Positions 1,998-16,064 of a stretch of DNA of 28,754 nt are shown piece by piece. Positions within the stretch are counted from its first letter, which is position 1; every line of letters begins with the position of its first letter. The stretch spans positions 1 through 28,754 of IMG/VR virus record IMGVR_UViG_3300024339_000061; one strand, given 5' to 3'. The DNA is from a virus. Below the pieces are notes generated by a model, which saw only the letters and a program-made list of their open reading frames with translations, did not search any database and had not been told where the DNA came from. The position numbers and the translations under genes are program-made.

Positions 1998-2269
1998 CCC
2001 ATCTCCTCATAGAAAGGAGTATCGCTGGGCACATGGATAAATGATTTACGCAGCATGGTTTCTATTTGCACACCGTAGCGCCTTAGCTCATCGTCGCTGA
2101 TAGCGTGAGGGTTACGCTTCATCCGGTCAGCGAGTTCACGGAGTGTTTTAGCATCTTGGTTTGTGTCGAGTATTAACATTGGGGTACCTCCTATAAGTCC
2201 GTCTGTGTACTGAGTGTCTGCTCGGTTGGCTTCATAATCACGCTGCTCTTCTGGGTCGGGGGTTAACAT
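1994..2269 (-). CDS. Small hypothetical protein, 91 aa
   Basis: Starts at ATG 2269, overlapping the 3' end of the helicase gene by 7 bases, and ends in an ATGA overlap with the HTH-like gene. The N-terminus is acidic and hydrophilic (PDPEEQRDYEANRAD). A helical segment follows, about residues 38-75 (DAKTLRELADRMKRNPHAIS...). No recognised domain. Its place right after the helicase suggests a small accessory protein of replication or recombination. Confidence 0.6.
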   Translation of the reverse strand: MLTPDPEEQRDYEANRADTQYTDGLIGGTPMLILDTNQDAKTLRELADRMKRNPHAISDDELRRYGVQIETMLRKSFIHVPSDTPFYEEMG

Positions 2270-3606
2270 TGCGGTGCCTTCATTGCGTGGAGTAAGGCGT
2301 TTTGGGTTAATTCTTTCTCGCCTAAAACTCTTAGCACCTTTTCGTCTATCGAGTCAGCAGCTACCAAGTGATGAACTGTTGTTGTGCTTTTTTGCCCCTG
2401 GCGGTGGAGTCGCCCTATTGCCTGGAGGTAGAGCTCATTGCTCCAAGGGATGGAGTACATAACCATCACATTGCCTCCATGCTGGAGTGATAGACCGTGG
2501 CTCATTGAGGCAAAGTGGCCTATCAAGAGCGGTACTTCGCCACGGTTCCACGCCTCAATTACACCTTTTGCTTTGACATCTACGGCTTTTTTGAAGCGTG
2601 ACTTGATACGGGCGGCATCAGCTTTGAACTCGTAGAACACAAGTACCGGGCCACCAGACTCTCCAATGACCTCCTCCAAGGCATCCAGCTTGGCGGTGTG
2701 CAGGTCGTGAGTCTCTCCCTCTTCGTCGTATAAGAAACCGCTGGAGATTTGTCGGAGCTTCCCTGATAAAACCGCGCTGTTGGGGGCCATGATGTCGGTG
2801 CCTTTCTCAAGCGTAATGAGAAATTCCTTCTCAATCTCTTCATAAATTGCTCTCACGTTTGGGGGGAGATAGATTCGGATGTCGTTAGAGAGTAAATCTG
2901 GTAGTTCCAGATAATCCTCTGCCAGCATACTCACTGTGATGTCTCTAATGCGCTCGTGGATATGCTTCTCTGCTCCAGGGCGTAGTTCCCACTGCCACCC
3001 CATGCGGCTCACATCAACCCAGAAGCGATCACGGTATCGGGTGTAGGCTGTCCCCAGTCTCTCCCCTTGGTCACAGCAGATATATTGCCCCCATAATCCG
3101 AGCAGGCTGTTGGCTGATGGAGTACCCGATAGGCAGATGAACCGCTCAACTGCCTTGCGAATCTTGCGAATAGACTTCACTCGTCGGCTGTTGTGCCCTT
3201 TGAGCATGGAGGCTTCATCTGCCACGATCACATCAAAATCCCATGTGCGTTTAGCGTAGAGGGCAACCAGCCAGTGCATCAGGTCGTACGACATCGCGTA
3301 CGCTTGGTGGTTTTCGCGGAGTAGGGCGGTTCGCTTCTTCGGAGTACCGACCAGGGGCACCACCTCCAGATTAATATGAGTCCAGTTTTTAGTCTCTGTT
3401 GTCCAGACGTGCTCAACCACCCGTGGGGGAGCAAGAATGAGAACCTTCTTAATCTCTCCCGCGTCCAGCTGCTCTTGGAGCGCAGTGAGAACGGAAATTG
3501 TTTTCCCCATACCGCAGTCGATGGCCAGGTAAGCCACTGGATGCGACTTAATAAACGCAATCGCTCTGTGCTGGTAGGAGTGTAGATTTTCTCTGCTTAG
3601 TTTCAT
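2263..3606 (-). CDS. SNF2/SF2-family DNA helicase (ATPase), 447 aa
   Basis: All main superfamily 2 motifs are visible: Walker A DCGMGKT (residues 30-36), Walker B/DExx DEAS (130-133), motif III LSGTP (159-163), motif V SMSHGLSLQHG (about 367-377) and motif VI QAIGRLHRQGQ (395-405). The GRLHRQGQ box and ~450 aa length match the compact SNF2-type helicases found in phage replication clusters. It should translocate on dsDNA and help remodel or initiate replication or recombination intermediates. The ATG is preceded by GAGAACGAG. The gene follows a CCNNG repeat array and overlaps the small gene after it. Confidence 0.93.
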   Translation of the reverse strand: MKLSRENLHSYQHRAIAFIKSHPVAYLAIDCGMGKTISVLTALQEQLDAGEIKKVLILAPPRVVEHVWTTETKNWTHINLEVVPLVGTPKKRTALLRENHQAYAMSYDLMHWLVALYAKRTWDFDVIVADEASMLKGHNSRRVKSIRKIRKAVERFICLSGTPSANSLLGLWGQYICCDQGERLGTAYTRYRDRFWVDVSRMGWQWELRPGAEKHIHERIRDITVSMLAEDYLELPDLLSNDIRIYLPPNVRAIYEEIEKEFLITLEKGTDIMAPNSAVLSGKLRQISSGFLYDEEGETHDLHTAKLDALEEVIGESGGPVLVFYEFKADAARIKSRFKKAVDVKAKGVIEAWNRGEVPLLIGHFASMSHGLSLQHGGNVMVMYSIPWSNELYLQAIGRLHRQGQKSTTTVHHLVAADSIDEKVLRVLGEKELTQNALLHAMKAPQC

Positions 3607-3655
3607 TTCTCGTTCTCTAAAATTAGGTTGGTCAGTTTCTTGAGTTGACCAGCTC

Positions 3656-3832
3656 CCTTGCCTCGCCCCGCCGAGCCACGCCGCGCCTAGCCTGGCCGCG
3701 CCTTGCCTGCCTTGCTTTGCCTTGCCTAGCCGCGCCTGGCCCTGCCATGCCTAGCCTAGCCACGCCTGCCTTGCCTTGCCCAGCCACGCCTGGCCCTGCC
3801 ATGCCTCGCCTGCCTTGCCTTGCCCAGCCCAG
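3656..3832. repeat. CCNNG pentamer array 1
   Basis: About 35 near-continuous units of CCNNG (CCTTG, CCTCG, CCCCG, CCGAG, CCACG, CCGCG, CCTAG, CCTGG and so on). The outer CC..G stays fixed while the two inner bases vary. Occasional 4-base CCTG units break the phase. A block GCCACGCCTGGCCCTGCCATG-like appears in near-repeated form. On the transcribed minus strand the RNA reads CNNGG. The array lies between the 153-aa gene and the helicase gene. The plus-strand ORF across it is a low-complexity shadow. Confidence 0.95.
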
Positions 3833-3850
3833 CTTTGGTTTGCCGAGCTT

Positions 3851-4312
3851 TTAATGAACCCGCTGTATTGCGTCACTTGCAGTATTCAAACCTTTCATAG
3901 CTAGAGCGAGCAGAGTAGTTGTGGAGTCGTCATGGCCTTGGACTGCGGCTTCCAAGGCTTCAACTGACTTCTTAGCTGCGTTCAGTTTCTTTTGTGCCTC
4001 GTCCATCGCCCGTTCAAACTCACTGAGCACCTTTACAATCGCATGGGCTGGTTTGTATTGCCCTGGGCCAACAGACACATTAGGTATGTGTACCAGCTTC
4101 TCTTCTGGCTTCTCGATAACCACGTTGTACCGCTTGATTAAGTTACGAGCCTGAATCTGTCGATACTTAATCGCGGCTTTATCATCGTTCCACTGGAACT
4201 CAGAATGGAGGGGGGACTTCTCGTCTCCCGCCTCAGCCAGCACTTTCGCAGTTGTCAAATTTCCATCAGCCGACAACATGGCCTTCAACTTCTCTGCTAC
4301 GCTCTTTTTCAT
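3851..4312 (-). CDS. Phage protein of unknown function, 153 aa
   Basis: Begins at ATG 4312 just after the stop of the RAMP-like gene, with GGGAG as ribosome binding site. The N-terminal half contains SPLHSEFQWNDDKAA followed by YRQIQARNLIKRYNVVIE. This is a pattern I recall from a common phage family (SPLH-HFEW-D-KAA--YR--QAR-LI) of unknown function that is often next to the upstream gene. Residues about 95-150 form a predicted coiled coil (FERAMDEAQKKLNAAKKSVE). It likely acts together with its neighbour in the recombination/replication operon. Confidence 0.75.
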   Translation of the reverse strand: MKKSVAEKLKAMLSADGNLTTAKVLAEAGDEKSPLHSEFQWNDDKAAIKYRQIQARNLIKRYNVVIEKPEEKLVHIPNVSVGPGQYKPAHAIVKVLSEFERAMDEAQKKLNAAKKSVEALEAAVQGHDDSTTTLLALAMKGLNTASDAIQRVH

Positions 4313-4315
4313 CGT

Positions 4316-4963
4316 TTAACTCCCTTCTACAATTTCAAATGTTCCCCAGCCCATGCCGTGGGACTTCTTAGAATCTGGGCGGCCTTCACCAATCCCTACC
4401 TGTAGGCCTGCCCGTAGCAACAAATTGGCGACATCAGAAGGGGAGAATTGGTCTGCATCAAACCGAACCCTCAACTTGGCTGTCCACGTTTCCCACATAG
4501 GGCGTATCGCTATAGATGCAACACCAGACTCAAGTCGAACAGATGCTTGGTGCATCTTTGGTTTCCCTTCCAGGAATACCAGTGGCGTACCGTCATCACT
4601 ATCAAAACCATCGGGCTCTACAAATACAGAGAGCTTGGCCTTAGTCATCTGGAACCCAGCTACACGACACGCTGAAATCAGCGCACTACGGAATGCTGGG
4701 GCAGGGATGCCATGCTTACCTTCAGAGGTGAGGTGCATTGCTCCCTGGTAATCCGCTTCAATGTCGCGAGGGTCTCTAGCCTTCTTGTTCTTCGCTTTTG
4801 GGCCTTCAACCTGGGCGGACAACATCATTCGCTTGGCTTTGGCTGAGAACTTATGCTGCACGTAGGGTGCAGTGCCTATAATGTCGAACTGTGTTGTTTG
4901 AATATTTGGAGCCGCAATTACAATTGACTCGACTGCTTTTGTTTTTTTAGCTGTTGCCATCAT
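4316..4963 (-). CDS. Conserved phage protein with RAMP-like features, 215 aa
   Basis: Start ATG 4963 (or ATG 4960) follows AAAGG at normal spacing. The order of segments is a strand FDIIGTAPYVQHKFS (26-40), a basic linker (AKNKKARDPRDIEADYQ), the helix PAPAFRSALISACRVAG, and a glycine-rich C-terminal loop (VGIGEGRP...SHGMGWGTFEI, about 188-211). I recall this layout from a widespread phage family of unknown function. The C-terminal G-rich loop resembles RAMP/Cas5-Cas6 loops, which is an inference. The gene and its partner at 3851 lie between the two CCNNG arrays. Confidence 0.8.
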   Translation of the reverse strand: MMATAKKTKAVESIVIAAPNIQTTQFDIIGTAPYVQHKFSAKAKRMMLSAQVEGPKAKNKKARDPRDIEADYQGAMHLTSEGKHGIPAPAFRSALISACRVAGFQMTKAKLSVFVEPDGFDSDDGTPLVFLEGKPKMHQASVRLESGVASIAIRPMWETWTAKLRVRFDADQFSPSDVANLLLRAGLQVGIGEGRPDSKKSHGMGWGTFEIVEGS

Positions 4964-5054
4964 TAAGTACCTTTCATTTCAAATGAGCTTGTTGTACTGG
5001 TCACTGCTCGCTCGTTACAGTGCCAGGACAGTTTGTGGAACTGCCAATCCTTTG

Positions 5055-5331
5055 CCATGCCTGCCTTGCCCCGCCTTGCCCTGCCTGGCCGCGCCTCGCC
5101 TGCCTTGCTTTGCCTAGCCTAGCCATGCCTTGCCTCGCCGAGCCTAGCCTGGCCGCGCCTCGCCTGCCTTGCTTTGCCTAGCCTAGCCATGCCTTGCCAC
5201 GCCTTGCCTGCCTTGCCCCGCCTTGCCTAGCCTTGCCGCGCCGTGCTTTGGAGTGCCTTGCCTCGCCTGCCTTGCCTTGCCTTGCTTTGCCCTGCCTGGC
5301 CGCGCCTGGCCGCGCCTGGCCCTGCCCTGCC
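5055..5331. repeat. CCNNG pentamer array 2 with internal duplication
   Basis: About 55 units of the same CCNNG type as array 1, again with 4-base CCTG interruptions and a few CTTTG units. A 51-base block at 5084-5134 is repeated without mismatch at 5148-5198, a 64-base offset, showing recent expansion by recombination or slippage. The array lies between the polymerase terminator and the RAMP-like gene. It has no start codon with a ribosome binding site and no protein-like composition in the sense strand. Confidence 0.95.
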
Positions 5332-5343
5332 ATAAATCTTGTT

Positions 5344-5373
5344 AAAAAGCCCCTCCCTAAAATCGGGGAGGGG
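5344..5373 (-). terminator. Rho-independent terminator after the DNA polymerase gene
   Basis: Reading leftward, CCCCTCCC (complement of 5373-5366) pairs with GGGAGGGG (complement of 5357-5350), an 8-bp GC stem. A GC step and five T residues (complement of 5348-5344) follow. It should separate the polymerase/SSB/nuclease genes from the array and RAMP-like/helicase genes unless an antiterminator acts. Confidence 0.85.
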
Positions 5374-5422
5374 AGTGGCCAGGCGGAAGCTCATCAACGC
5401 CTGGCAGGAGGAAATTATTTAC

Positions 5423-7156
5423 TCACCAGCTTTGCTCCTCATAAGCGCAATCACGCATAGTTGATCGGGCCTCTTTGATGTACCAGTCGTAGTTAATGTC
5501 GGTTGGTAGTTCGGCAGGGAGATCCATCAGAGGACGAGCGCCGTCTGTGCGCGGCACCTTGTTACCGTTCTTCTTGTAATTAATAGTCCCCTCCACCTCA
5601 GTGGAGTAGTACCAACGGATCATCTTGCCGATCAGCTCATCATCCTTAACTGCTCCACCAGTCACTCTACGGATGGTTAGGAACTTGGTGATGTCGGTGC
5701 AATTACAGATGTAATCTTCAATAGGCTGATAGGTCAGCGCATTGTTGGTGATTGCCTCAAAGCAGATGCGGTTGGTAGGGTTCTTCATCAATCCTGGTGT
5801 GGCGAATATTCCCTTACCTTTGATCTCGCTCCCCTTCACAGCGAAGTAGTTATTCACATCACGGCTGTAGAGGGATTCATAACGTGTCTCCTCCATCTCA
5901 AAGCCGGTCTGCTTCTCCCAATCTGCTACAAGTTGATCCACTGCATTAGTCAAATCAGCACTGTGCTTAACTACAATGCCATCAGTGTTCCCACTCACTA
6001 CTGGCACTCCCATACCCTCCAATTGTTCAATGAGCATCAGGAGCGCGAGTTGACCGGTCAGTGTGACCTGGGTTAGCAGGGTGGGGGAGTAGAGGAATGA
6101 CCACTTGGAGCCAAATTTTCCAAACGATCCATTGATCGTGATCTTGAGCGAGTCAGCAACAACCTTGTTACCACTGCGCTTTGCTCTGATCCGCTCATTA
6201 ACTATTGACCCATACACATCCAGGAACTGCTCCCCTAACTGCTCTGGGTACAATCTTTGACCAAGAATCACTCCTGGGTAGTAGCTAGTCACATCGAAAT
6301 CGCGCAGCACGGTGTCATTATCGGAATGGTGGGCTGCACATTTTTCAGTAGAGTGGAGCCCGCCAATACCAAAACTGTAAACACTGTTACCGATTCCGAT
6401 ATGCTTCTTATCCAGCTTTGGGGCAATGACTTTGAGCTTATCGTTGAGGCTGAACTTGGCACCCTCAACAATGCCCCCATTGGTCATCCATTCAGGAGGC
6501 TGATACTGCCACTCCAGGCTCGCATCAATGGTTGGTTTGGGGGTGTTATCCAGCTTGTTGCGGAATACCGCTTCTGCAATCTGGGCATCTGACTTGCTCA
6601 TCAGATCGGTGTTGTACTCAGCGCTCATTCTCCTGCGAAGATCGAGCTGTGCCCCTAGTGAGCGATAGAGCTGTTCAGTTACGTCCACATCGTTATGGCA
6701 ATACTTAGTGATCAGCTCTTTCTGCTCATCAGTAAGCACTGTGTCTGGTTCAAGTGGGAGATCCTGCATCTTGGGGGAGTGCATCCTCCCGCCGTACTGC
6801 TTCAGTGATACCTGCACCCCTGGAGCGACTTCGTATAGATCGATGCTACTCATCTTGTGCATGGGTATCTGAGGGTTGTGCTGCCAATGCTTCATATTGC
6901 TATTGATGATCTTGTCATTGAGAGCTTTGATCTGTTCGTGGGTAGTGACCTTCCCATCCGCAATACGCCAGAGGATGGGAAGGTCATAGTTATTTGAGTT
7001 AAAGCCCACCATTGTTTTGGTAAGTAGGAGCTTTTTAATCTCCTGTGCATCCTCAAGGTAGTGCACACGATGCGCGCCAGTCTTGATTGAGCGGAATACC
7101 GCGACAAAGAAGTTTGGATAAACTTCGATGTCAACAATGATGGGCTGCTTGCTCAT
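5423..7156 (-). CDS. Compact family-B-like DNA polymerase with 3'-5' exonuclease, 577 aa
   Basis: Exonuclease motifs: DIE (residues 9-11), FNSNNYD (52-58) and YCHND (152-156). Polymerase motifs: DVTSYYP (288-294, motif A), K338 to G346 in the LKITINGSFG segment (motif B) and GNTDG (389-393, motif C). In motif C the first aspartate of the usual DTD is asparagine. At 577 aa it is far shorter than typical family B enzymes and resembles the compact polymerases of phages that also carry DUF2815 and DUF2800 genes. It replicates or repairs phage DNA together with the ssDNA-binding protein upstream, whose stop lies two bases before this ATG. A terminator follows. Confidence 0.9.
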   Translation of the reverse strand: MSKQPIIVDIEVYPNFFVAVFRSIKTGAHRVHYLEDAQEIKKLLLTKTMVGFNSNNYDLPILWRIADGKVTTHEQIKALNDKIINSNMKHWQHNPQIPMHKMSSIDLYEVAPGVQVSLKQYGGRMHSPKMQDLPLEPDTVLTDEQKELITKYCHNDVDVTEQLYRSLGAQLDLRRRMSAEYNTDLMSKSDAQIAEAVFRNKLDNTPKPTIDASLEWQYQPPEWMTNGGIVEGAKFSLNDKLKVIAPKLDKKHIGIGNSVYSFGIGGLHSTEKCAAHHSDNDTVLRDFDVTSYYPGVILGQRLYPEQLGEQFLDVYGSIVNERIRAKRSGNKVVADSLKITINGSFGKFGSKWSFLYSPTLLTQVTLTGQLALLMLIEQLEGMGVPVVSGNTDGIVVKHSADLTNAVDQLVADWEKQTGFEMEETRYESLYSRDVNNYFAVKGSEIKGKGIFATPGLMKNPTNRICFEAITNNALTYQPIEDYICNCTDITKFLTIRRVTGGAVKDDELIGKMIRWYYSTEVEGTINYKKNGNKVPRTDGARPLMDLPAELPTDINYDWYIKEARSTMRDCAYEEQSW

Positions 7157-7727: not shown

Positions 7728-8147
7728 TTATTTAAAATCTGACTCAGCAGAGGAGGCGATTACGTCTCTCTTATCAGAGTCAGGAACAAGGGTTGGCTTG
7801 CCTTGCGGTTTGATCGTTAGCCGATTCATAATTGGAGCGGCGATCTTTTTGCCACCCAATAATTTCTCAACTGCCGTAACGCCAGCCAGTTTGGTTGCTA
7901 CGAATTGTTCGGCGTGTAGCCCATGCGCCATCAGTGTTTGTTTCACCTCATCCGGGTCTTGCCATCTGCGGACGGATCTACCAGCCACTAACTTGTAGCC
8001 CGGTACAGGTGTGCCATGCTCTGCCATTTGCAGGGCAAGGGTCTTTACGTCTTTGCACCAGCTCTCAACGAAGCCGATGTTCGGTAACAACTCTGCGACC
8101 TCTTCAGGAGAGAGGGTGGTTGCCGGTTTTAAATCTGGGTGTTTCAT
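7728..8147 (-). CDS. C-terminal part of a split DUF2800 protein, 139 aa
   Basis: Residues 12-100 (SPEEVAELLPNIGFVESWCK..., PGYKLVAGRSVRRW, AVEKLLGGKK) followed by IKPQGKPTLVPDSDKR correspond to the C-terminal third of DUF2800 proteins, normally continuous with the nuclease part encoded just upstream. Here it starts at its own ATG 8147, sharing ATGA with the stop of the upstream ORF. The two parts may be made by coupled re-initiation or, less likely, frameshifting, and may associate. No stand-alone catalytic motif is visible. Confidence 0.85.
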   Translation of the reverse strand: MKHPDLKPATTLSPEEVAELLPNIGFVESWCKDVKTLALQMAEHGTPVPGYKLVAGRSVRRWQDPDEVKQTLMAHGLHAEQFVATKLAGVTAVEKLLGGKKIAAPIMNRLTIKPQGKPTLVPDSDKRDVIASSAESDFK

Positions 8148-8890
8148 GCTGCGAACTCCATTTTTGCGATCTTCATTGCATACTCAGCGCGAGCTCTACA
8201 CCGGAGCTTCGCTCTGCACCACTGACACGCCTTCTCTGAAGGATTGAACGGCGGGTTGTCACTCAGGGCGAGCTCTGCTGCTGGCCGCAAAGTGTTGTCA
8301 GCCCAATCCAACAGATCATCAGTGCTGATATCCCACTCGGAGATGTGGTCGAGGCGGGGCTGGACAATCACCAGCTTCCACTGCTTGGTGCTGTGGATGA
8401 ACCCCAGGTCTTGGTGTGCTCCCAGGGCATATATCATCGCCTGGCTGTTCTCTTCGGCATCGACCCGAACACCTGTGCCCATTTTTAGGTCAATCGCATA
8501 ACCTTGGTCACCGTGGAAGATTATTGAGTCCGATGTACCGAACCCATCAGGAACCCACCGGCTGTAGCTGACCTTCACCTCAACCATCAGCGCCCCAGTG
8601 ATACCCCTGACATACTCCAGGTATACCTGAACAGCATCAGCCATCTCATCATCAACTGAAAACTCCTCCCCTTTGGCAGTGATGACCTGTCCCAGATGGG
8701 ATCGCGCATTGCTACCATCGTTGAGGCAGTTTTCAGCCAGGTGATGACCCGCCGTACCGTATGCTGCAAAAATAGACGGTTGATCAGGGTAGTTGGCAGA
8801 TGCTGCTACTGACCCAGCGCAACCCATCCACCGGGAGGAGCTTGAGGCTCCAAGAGGGGAGTGGGCTATCTCTTCAGCGACTTGGGTCAT
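8144..8890 (-). CDS. N-terminal part of a split DUF2800 protein: RecB/Cas4-like nuclease, 248 aa
   Basis: Contains the PD-(D/E)XK core: GTAGHH (45-50), D121 in FGTSDSIIF, DLK (134-136) in YAIDLKMGTG, and the RecB motif Q150-xxx-Y154. Cysteines C24, C222, C225 and C231 are spaced like the four Fe-S cysteines of AddB/Cas4 nucleases, with C24 in a WMGCAGS box near the N-terminus. DUF2800 proteins usually continue about 140 residues further; here the stop falls right after the cysteine cluster and the rest is the next ORF. Likely a DNA end-processing exonuclease of the phage recombination system. The start overlaps the previous gene by ATGA. Confidence 0.88.
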   Translation of the reverse strand: MTQVAEEIAHSPLGASSSSRWMGCAGSVAASANYPDQPSIFAAYGTAGHHLAENCLNDGSNARSHLGQVITAKGEEFSVDDEMADAVQVYLEYVRGITGALMVEVKVSYSRWVPDGFGTSDSIIFHGDQGYAIDLKMGTGVRVDAEENSQAMIYALGAHQDLGFIHSTKQWKLVIVQPRLDHISEWDISTDDLLDWADNTLRPAAELALSDNPPFNPSEKACQWCRAKLRCRARAEYAMKIAKMEFAA

Positions 8891-10484: not shown

Positions 10485-10534
10485 AACCGTCTTAACCGTC
10501 TTAACCGTCTTAACCGTCTTAACCGTCTTAACCG
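10485..10534. repeat. Five tandem 9-bp repeats after cro
   Basis: Five exact copies of AACCGTCTT (10485-10529) plus a partial AACCG. The 9-base unit would encode Asn-Arg-Leu in one frame, but stops on both sides and the absence of a start argue against coding. It lies between the Cro-like gene and a strong hairpin and could be a protein-binding iteron or a processing or antitermination signal. Confidence 0.95.
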
Positions 10535-15709: not shown

Positions 15710-15970
15710 TTAAAACACGCTGAGAGGGCTTACAACAGCCTTAGAAGCAAGATGGATGGCGTAGGTCATAGGGATATAGTACCCGCAGAAAATGTCATCT
15801 TTGATGATCTCTCCATCCATCATTTGATATCCGTCTGCCTCGGCGGCTAGAGTCTCCCGACTCCCTTGTGCGACCGCTGCCAGTAAATCCTCAGCAGTCG
15901 TTACCCTGGCATCAGGGCTGATGCCTCGGCTGATCGCGATGTGTCCGTTATTTGCGTTGAAAAATGACAT
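15710..15970 (-). CDS. Small hypothetical protein, 86 aa, with multiple possible starts
   Basis: The core protein starts at ATG 15970 (MSFFNANNGHIAISRG...), 8 bases after AGGAG. Upstream are four more in-frame ATGs, at 15988, 16006, 16024 and 16042, each with its own AGGAG, supplied by five tandem 18-base repeats. Each earlier start would add the six residues MSGDNT. The body is mixed alpha/beta with no recognised motif (DLLAAVAQGSRETLAAEADG; DDIFCGYYIPMTYA). It is the last gene of the minus-strand operon and convergent with the Q-like gene. Confidence 0.6.
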   Translation of the reverse strand: MSFFNANNGHIAISRGISPDARVTTAEDLLAAVAQGSRETLAAEADGYQMMDGEIIKDDIFCGYYIPMTYAIHLASKAVVSPLSVF

Positions 15971-16055
15971 TGTGTTATCTCCTGACATTGTGTTATCTCC
16001 TGACATTGTGTTATCTCCTGACATTGTGTTATCTCCTGACATTGTGTTATCTCCT
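15966..16055 (-). repeat. Five tandem 18-bp repeats, each an SD plus ATG
   Basis: The coding-strand unit is AGGAGATAACACAATGTC, present in five exact copies. Each carries AGGAG, an 8-base spacer and ATG. The 18-base length keeps all starts in the same frame, so the locus offers five complete translation initiation sites in series for the 86-aa protein. Confidence 0.97.
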
Positions 16056-16064
16056 GTTGAGGGT

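Follow-up and report, generated by a model that had tools for sequence, protein, structure and literature searches.

The window analyzed here is a virus record of 28,754 bases, and all positions refer to this whole stretch. Two arrays of NNGGC pentamers, each with a 3' tail, frame exactly two minus-strand genes (Table 1). An initial annotation had described this arrangement as two arrays with fixed CC and G, varying middle letters and periodic phase breaks around a gene pair, and both the pattern and the framing were confirmed in place. The plus strand of both arrays reads (GCCNN)n with GCCT phase breaks. Since all genes across 2263-7156 lie on the minus strand, transcripts of their strand read (NNGGC)n. 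Neither the reverse-complement motif as an array nor, outside the two arrays, a further run of six GCC at 5-base spacing was found in the window.

Table 1. Features of the locus, listed in minus-strand order (L-numbers are labels of fetched loci).
Feature	Position	Strand	Description	Basis
Terminator-like hairpin with T run	5350-5373	minus	follows the DNA polymerase gene and immediately precedes array 2	stem of 8 pairs
Array 2 (probable vrRNA array)	5052-5331	minus	~50 NNGGC pentamers in 6 blocks split by GGC-A-GGC phase breaks; upstream of vipr	sequence, published vrRNA motif, strand consistency over loci
Tail of array 2 (3')	5026-5053	minus	AAAGGATTGGCAGTTCCACAAACTGTCC; possible hairpin ~5027-5045	similarity to tail 1, p 0.0125
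Vipr (RAMP protein), 215 aa	4316-4963	minus	phrog_4652; glycine-rich loop GIGEGRPDSKKSHGMGWG near the C-terminus	profile, pairwise comparison, AF2 model
vap candidate, 153 aa	3851-4312	minus	after vipr; phrog_15946; motif SPLHxxFxWDDxxAAxxYRxxQAxxLI	homologues beside Vipr, AF2 pLDDT 87
Array 1 (probable vrRNA array)	3656-3836	minus	~34 NNGGC pentamers in 4 blocks; downstream of vap	sequence
Tail of array 1 (3')	3625-3659	minus	AAGGGAGCTGGTCAACTCAAGAAACTGACCAACC; 6-bp hairpin 3629-3651	related tails in L042, L013

Array 1 contains 34 GCC triplets, 29 of which are followed by the next GCC exactly 5 bases on, compared with a mean of 2.1 and a maximum of 7 such pairs in 1000 dinucleotide shuffles. 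The corresponding numbers for array 2 are 52 triplets and 42 pairs at exactly 5-base spacing (dinucleotide shuffles: mean 3.3, maximum 10). In both arrays, the 5-base spacing of GCC is far above chance. When 81 units were aligned in the minus-strand NNGGC register, the last G and the C were kept in all 81 and the first G was changed four times, with entropies of 1.89 and 1.54 bits in the two N columns. Each phase break is a unit of 4 bases (GCCT on the plus strand, GGC-A-GGC in the RNA); there are three in array 1 and five in array 2, and the dinucleotide directly before a break is AA every time. Between breaks the window arrays hold runs of 7-13 NN, so some blocks are shorter than nine repeats. 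Some blocks have halves in common; array 2 also contains a 64-base higher-order repeat and one block with the broken stretch ACTCCAAAGC. An Rfam search gave no match.

After the last GGC, both arrays continue with a related stretch, GGCAARGGA...AAACTGNCC (p 0.0125 vs shuffles), and relatives of the window tails are present in the two loci named in Table 1. An alignment of four tail sequences supports a 6-bp hairpin in which one pair is altered on both sides, from GC to UA; this two-sided change is suggestive of a conserved hairpin, at a level where shuffle controls were not beaten. Tail 2 taken alone folded no better than shuffles. Tails of the same locus were alike beyond the 95% level in 19 of 43 pairs, compared with 3 of 44 for the 5' flanks, and were less alike between loci. 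Overall hairpin content 3' of the arrays was not higher than in the 5' flanks, and the count of terminator-like sites with a T run was not above that of shuffles. The earlier suggestion of a structured RNA spacer was not upheld for the repeats, a structured appearance being confined to the 3' tails.

The framed genes and the VIPR system

VIPR was described in a 2026 preprint from the Doudna laboratory as a phage RAMP protein, Vipr, with an accessory gene, vap, and vrRNAs (PMC13142463). The vrRNA consists of 9-16 YNNGG repeats followed by a 3' tail, and the complex reads double-stranded DNA via the NN letters, with one skipped base between dinucleotides, and silences the genes of rival phages; Vipr is described as a RAMP homologue of ~20 kDa with a G-loop (PMC13142463). 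The initial annotation knew of no described function for the arrays; one is now available with VIPR (PMC13142463).

A profile of 47 relatives of the 4316-4963 protein, with SUSP1 not among its rows, matched PDB 36pp, 'SUSP1 Vipr protein', with an E value of 7.3e-41, the next match being at 0.42. Since SUSP1 was in the sequence set of the iterated HMM, the independent check is the pairwise comparison of the window protein with SUSP1 Vipr, which gave 21% identity at E 2e-9. The AlphaFold2 model (mean pLDDT 91.6) resembles Csm3 and type VII Cas7 (Z 10-11.5, ~150 residues aligned, ~7-16% identity) as well as other RAMPs, and glycines 185, 189 and 206 are invariant. By homology and predicted fold, the product is a Vipr protein, in agreement with the RAMP-like label given earlier. 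All 47 aligned relatives were assigned to phrog_4652, which is annotated as 'unknown function'. Among isolate phages, the closest records come from Cyanophage Cy-LDV1 (55%) and from Mycobacterium and Gordonia phages (~34%), and no close relatives were found in GTDB genomes.

The candidate Vap is predicted to have an N-terminal helical domain and long C-terminal helices. Besides the window, 26 array loci and Cy-LDV1 carry a homologue next to vipr, and 23 of 24 relatives were assigned to phrog_15946. No similarity to SUSP1 vap1, the gene by which type II is recognized, was found by HMM or hhalign, and Foldseek searches with the model returned weak, insignificant matches only, the best being a transcriptional regulator (E 0.18). 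As DNA binding is predicted for the vaps of types II, VI and VII (PMC13142463), the window Vap might by analogy bind DNA as well.

The window combines a Vipr-family RAMP with a G-loop, repeats with fixed GGY and variable NN, an adjacent vap and a phage genome, whose record encodes terminase, portal and capsid. It resembles the type II VIPR of Escherichia phage SUSP1 (KT454805, PDB 36pp) in the Vipr homologue, the order guides-vipr-vap-guides, the GGY/NN repeats, a putative 3' tail and the phage genome. In SUSP1, one vrRNA lies upstream and three lie downstream of the protein genes (PMC13142463), and we located GGTNN tracts in the gaps flanking these genes. In contrast to SUSP1, the window Vap belongs to another family and the repeat is GGC instead of mostly GGT. 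SUSP1 has separate vrRNAs with a tail each, whereas each window array strings several blocks together, with 1-base phase breaks between them and a single tail; most window blocks have no tail of their own. For VIPR, 'staggered arrays with overlapping vrRNAs' are mentioned (PMC13142463, fig. S18); going by this mention, several guides would share an array, which is probably the architecture of the window. Cy-LDV1 (BK059895) has a Vipr (g34) 55% identical, a vap of the same family (g33) and phase-broken GGC arrays, although its arrays follow vipr and vap and its repeat includes GGA variants. The window Vipr has the RAMP fold in common with Csm3 and Cas7, which form the backbone of CRISPR effectors of types III and VII; unlike those systems, the window has no CRISPR array, and no other cas genes were seen among the neighbours examined.

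Array-bearing loci in other phages

Scanning IMG/VR for nine GCC at 5-base spacing yielded at least 120 stretches, and 120 loci were searched for relatives with an iterated HMM that started from the protein at 4316-4963 of the window. A Vipr relative is encoded in 86 of the 120 listed loci, which had been picked by array pattern alone. With the window's own pair counted, 127 of 131 arrays have their GCC on the other strand from vipr, giving GGC in the RNA; some loci are duplicates (e.g. L058 and L108), so these counts are slightly inflated. As a control, 15 loci retrieved with unrelated patterns contained no Vipr. The association between CCNNG arrays and this gene family, a scan for which the initial annotation had proposed, is therefore real within the listed loci, and VIPR is findable by DNA pattern alone. 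The four arrays with reversed orientation relative to vipr are those of L028, L063, L073 and L077.

Among the 34 listed loci with no Vipr match, five consist of low-complexity repeats, and in 14 the array lies at most 1.2 kb from the end of the stretch. Complex GCCNN arrays deep in the stretch, with no detectable Vipr nearby, occur in L046 (10563-10865), L025 (10436-10592) and L007 (5129-5196); a divergent Vipr may be encoded there, or these may be guide arrays without a Vipr of their own.

The fixed triplet is common to the arrays of unrelated phages and the NN letters are not. Equal drift at GGC in relatives, which would have spoken against the proposed selection on the pattern, was not seen; the opposite was found, and the proposal is supported. 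Several arrays have phase breaks or longer separators, and A is the break base at 140 of the 156 breaks in Vipr loci. Block length between successive breaks clusters at 7-13 pentamers in these loci, approximately the published guide length, and 5-30 blocks are present in many other phages. A Vap of the phrog_15946 type was found in 21 of 34 loci with breaks and in 6 of 51 without (Fisher p 2e-6, relatedness ignored).

Some arrays deserve separate description. In L097, L070, L024 and L006, 6-base separators (ATCGCA, ACCGCA, GTTCAA) stand between guide blocks instead of phase breaks. The giant array of L053 (1963-3536) comprises ~211 units, and an internal element close to GGGAGCAGCAGCATCCGGCGYAAAGGGATGGAC recurs between its groups of blocks. 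Two consecutive guide blocks of L112 (3643-3973) differ in one NN (AT or CT), as if following a target variant.

Guide-RNA reading of the arrays and its alternatives

We are highly confident that the locus is a phage-carried VIPR system with two guide arrays, given the array pattern, its association with Vipr genes in strand and position across many phages, the Vipr homology and fold, the recurrence of the vap family and the relatedness of the tails. Both arrays are very probably guide-RNA genes of VIPR, and the window is a further example of a system already described in 2026. Transcription, Vipr loading, DNA binding and silencing would, by analogy with the published system, proceed as follows. 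Read on the minus strand from 5331 to 3625, the locus would comprise guide array 2, Vipr, Vap and guide array 1, each array giving an RNA of NNGGC repeats with a terminal tail. Vipr subunits would align along this RNA, probably one per pentamer, the protein holding GGC as a scaffold, so that both N letters could pair with DNA according to the 1-base-skip rule (NNx). Once bound, the complex would silence genes of rival phages or of satellites.

The GGC-A-GGC breaks would divide each array into guide-sized blocks, and one array therefore probably holds several guides; that the breaks delimit guides in a multi-guide array is the simplest reading. It is a more tentative thought, which we hold as possible but rather doubtful, that several Vipr filaments form on one single-tailed transcript, the 1-base shift marking the guide boundary and this Vap family perhaps being a dedicated partner. 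To our knowledge, guide-RNA punctuation by a 1-base shift has no counterpart in CRISPR. A variant compatible with the main reading is that only the block adjacent to the tail guides, the inner blocks decaying or serving as storage only. The single tail per array, the blocks with common halves and the broken stretch in array 2 would fit this variant, but GGC is constant in nearly all blocks and many other phages keep 5-30 of them, and we regard it as unlikely.

The remaining alternatives depart from VIPR altogether. The arrays could be double-stranded DNA sites of an operator, partition or iteron-like kind, bound by Vipr or Vap, as their position in non-coding DNA beside genes and the length of two units (10 bases, near one helical turn) would allow. 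However, a sequence-specific DNA site is hard to reconcile with 4-base phase breaks and with two of every five letters being free, the strand of the arrays is fixed relative to vipr in 127 of 131, as expected of RNA, and Vipr is an RNA-holding RAMP, which makes such a site very improbable. When the arrays were first noted, a binding array for the RAMP-like protein had been proposed; the link to the protein stands, while the DNA site gives way to a template of guide RNAs bound by Vipr. A recombination hot spot had been considered as well. Slippage and unit exchange in a neutral microsatellite would account for the higher-order repeat in array 2 and for shared sub-blocks, which indicate that units were duplicated within arrays, but slippage alone is not expected to keep GGC constant beside near-random NN. 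Since GGC is kept while NN diverges, and the arrays of unrelated phages follow Vipr and agree in motif but not in NN letters, we set the hot spot aside and give a neutral origin even less credence than a DNA site. Least credible of all is a standard repeat-spacer array of CRISPR-Cas or of another Class 1 RAMP system: the Csm3/Cas7-like fold of Vipr points that way, but the repeats are 5 bases long, CRISPR-type direct repeats are absent and no other cas gene was found among the neighbours examined.

VIPR, a compact and programmable system for recognizing DNA, has been proposed to predate CRISPR. The phase-broken arrays raise the question of how a single RNA would be cut into, or read as, several guides.

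Target search and other features of the record

NNx patterns derived from the window guides by the 1-base-skip rule were searched for in IMG/VR and in GTDB genomes. In IMG/VR, two 18-base patterns gave 0 matches, two others one match each and one 16-base pattern seven matches; in GTDB bacterial genomes, one guide pattern gave six. These numbers are about what chance would give, as estimated from collection size. The matches mostly failed to extend outside the pattern. An exception was L157, which matches all nine NN of one block with the skip at codon position 2; it was judged to be a chance match like the others. No self-target was found in the window. A comparison of skip rules with 423 guides against the fetched loci had no power, the extra skip-1 matches being mostly loci fetched by the same patterns. 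With matches at chance level, no natural target was assigned.

No DNA similarity of the window to isolate phages was found. Two perfect tandem repeats lie elsewhere in the record, one of 18 bases in 5.1 copies at 15965-16056 (TGACATTGTGTTATCTCC) and one of 9 bases, AACCGTCTT, in 5.6 copies at 10485-10534, between the repressor region and the helicase gene. A member of the DUF2800/phage exonuclease family (7728-8890) is split over two overlapping minus-strand ORFs, 8144-8890 encoding the N-terminal and 7728-8147 the C-terminal part.
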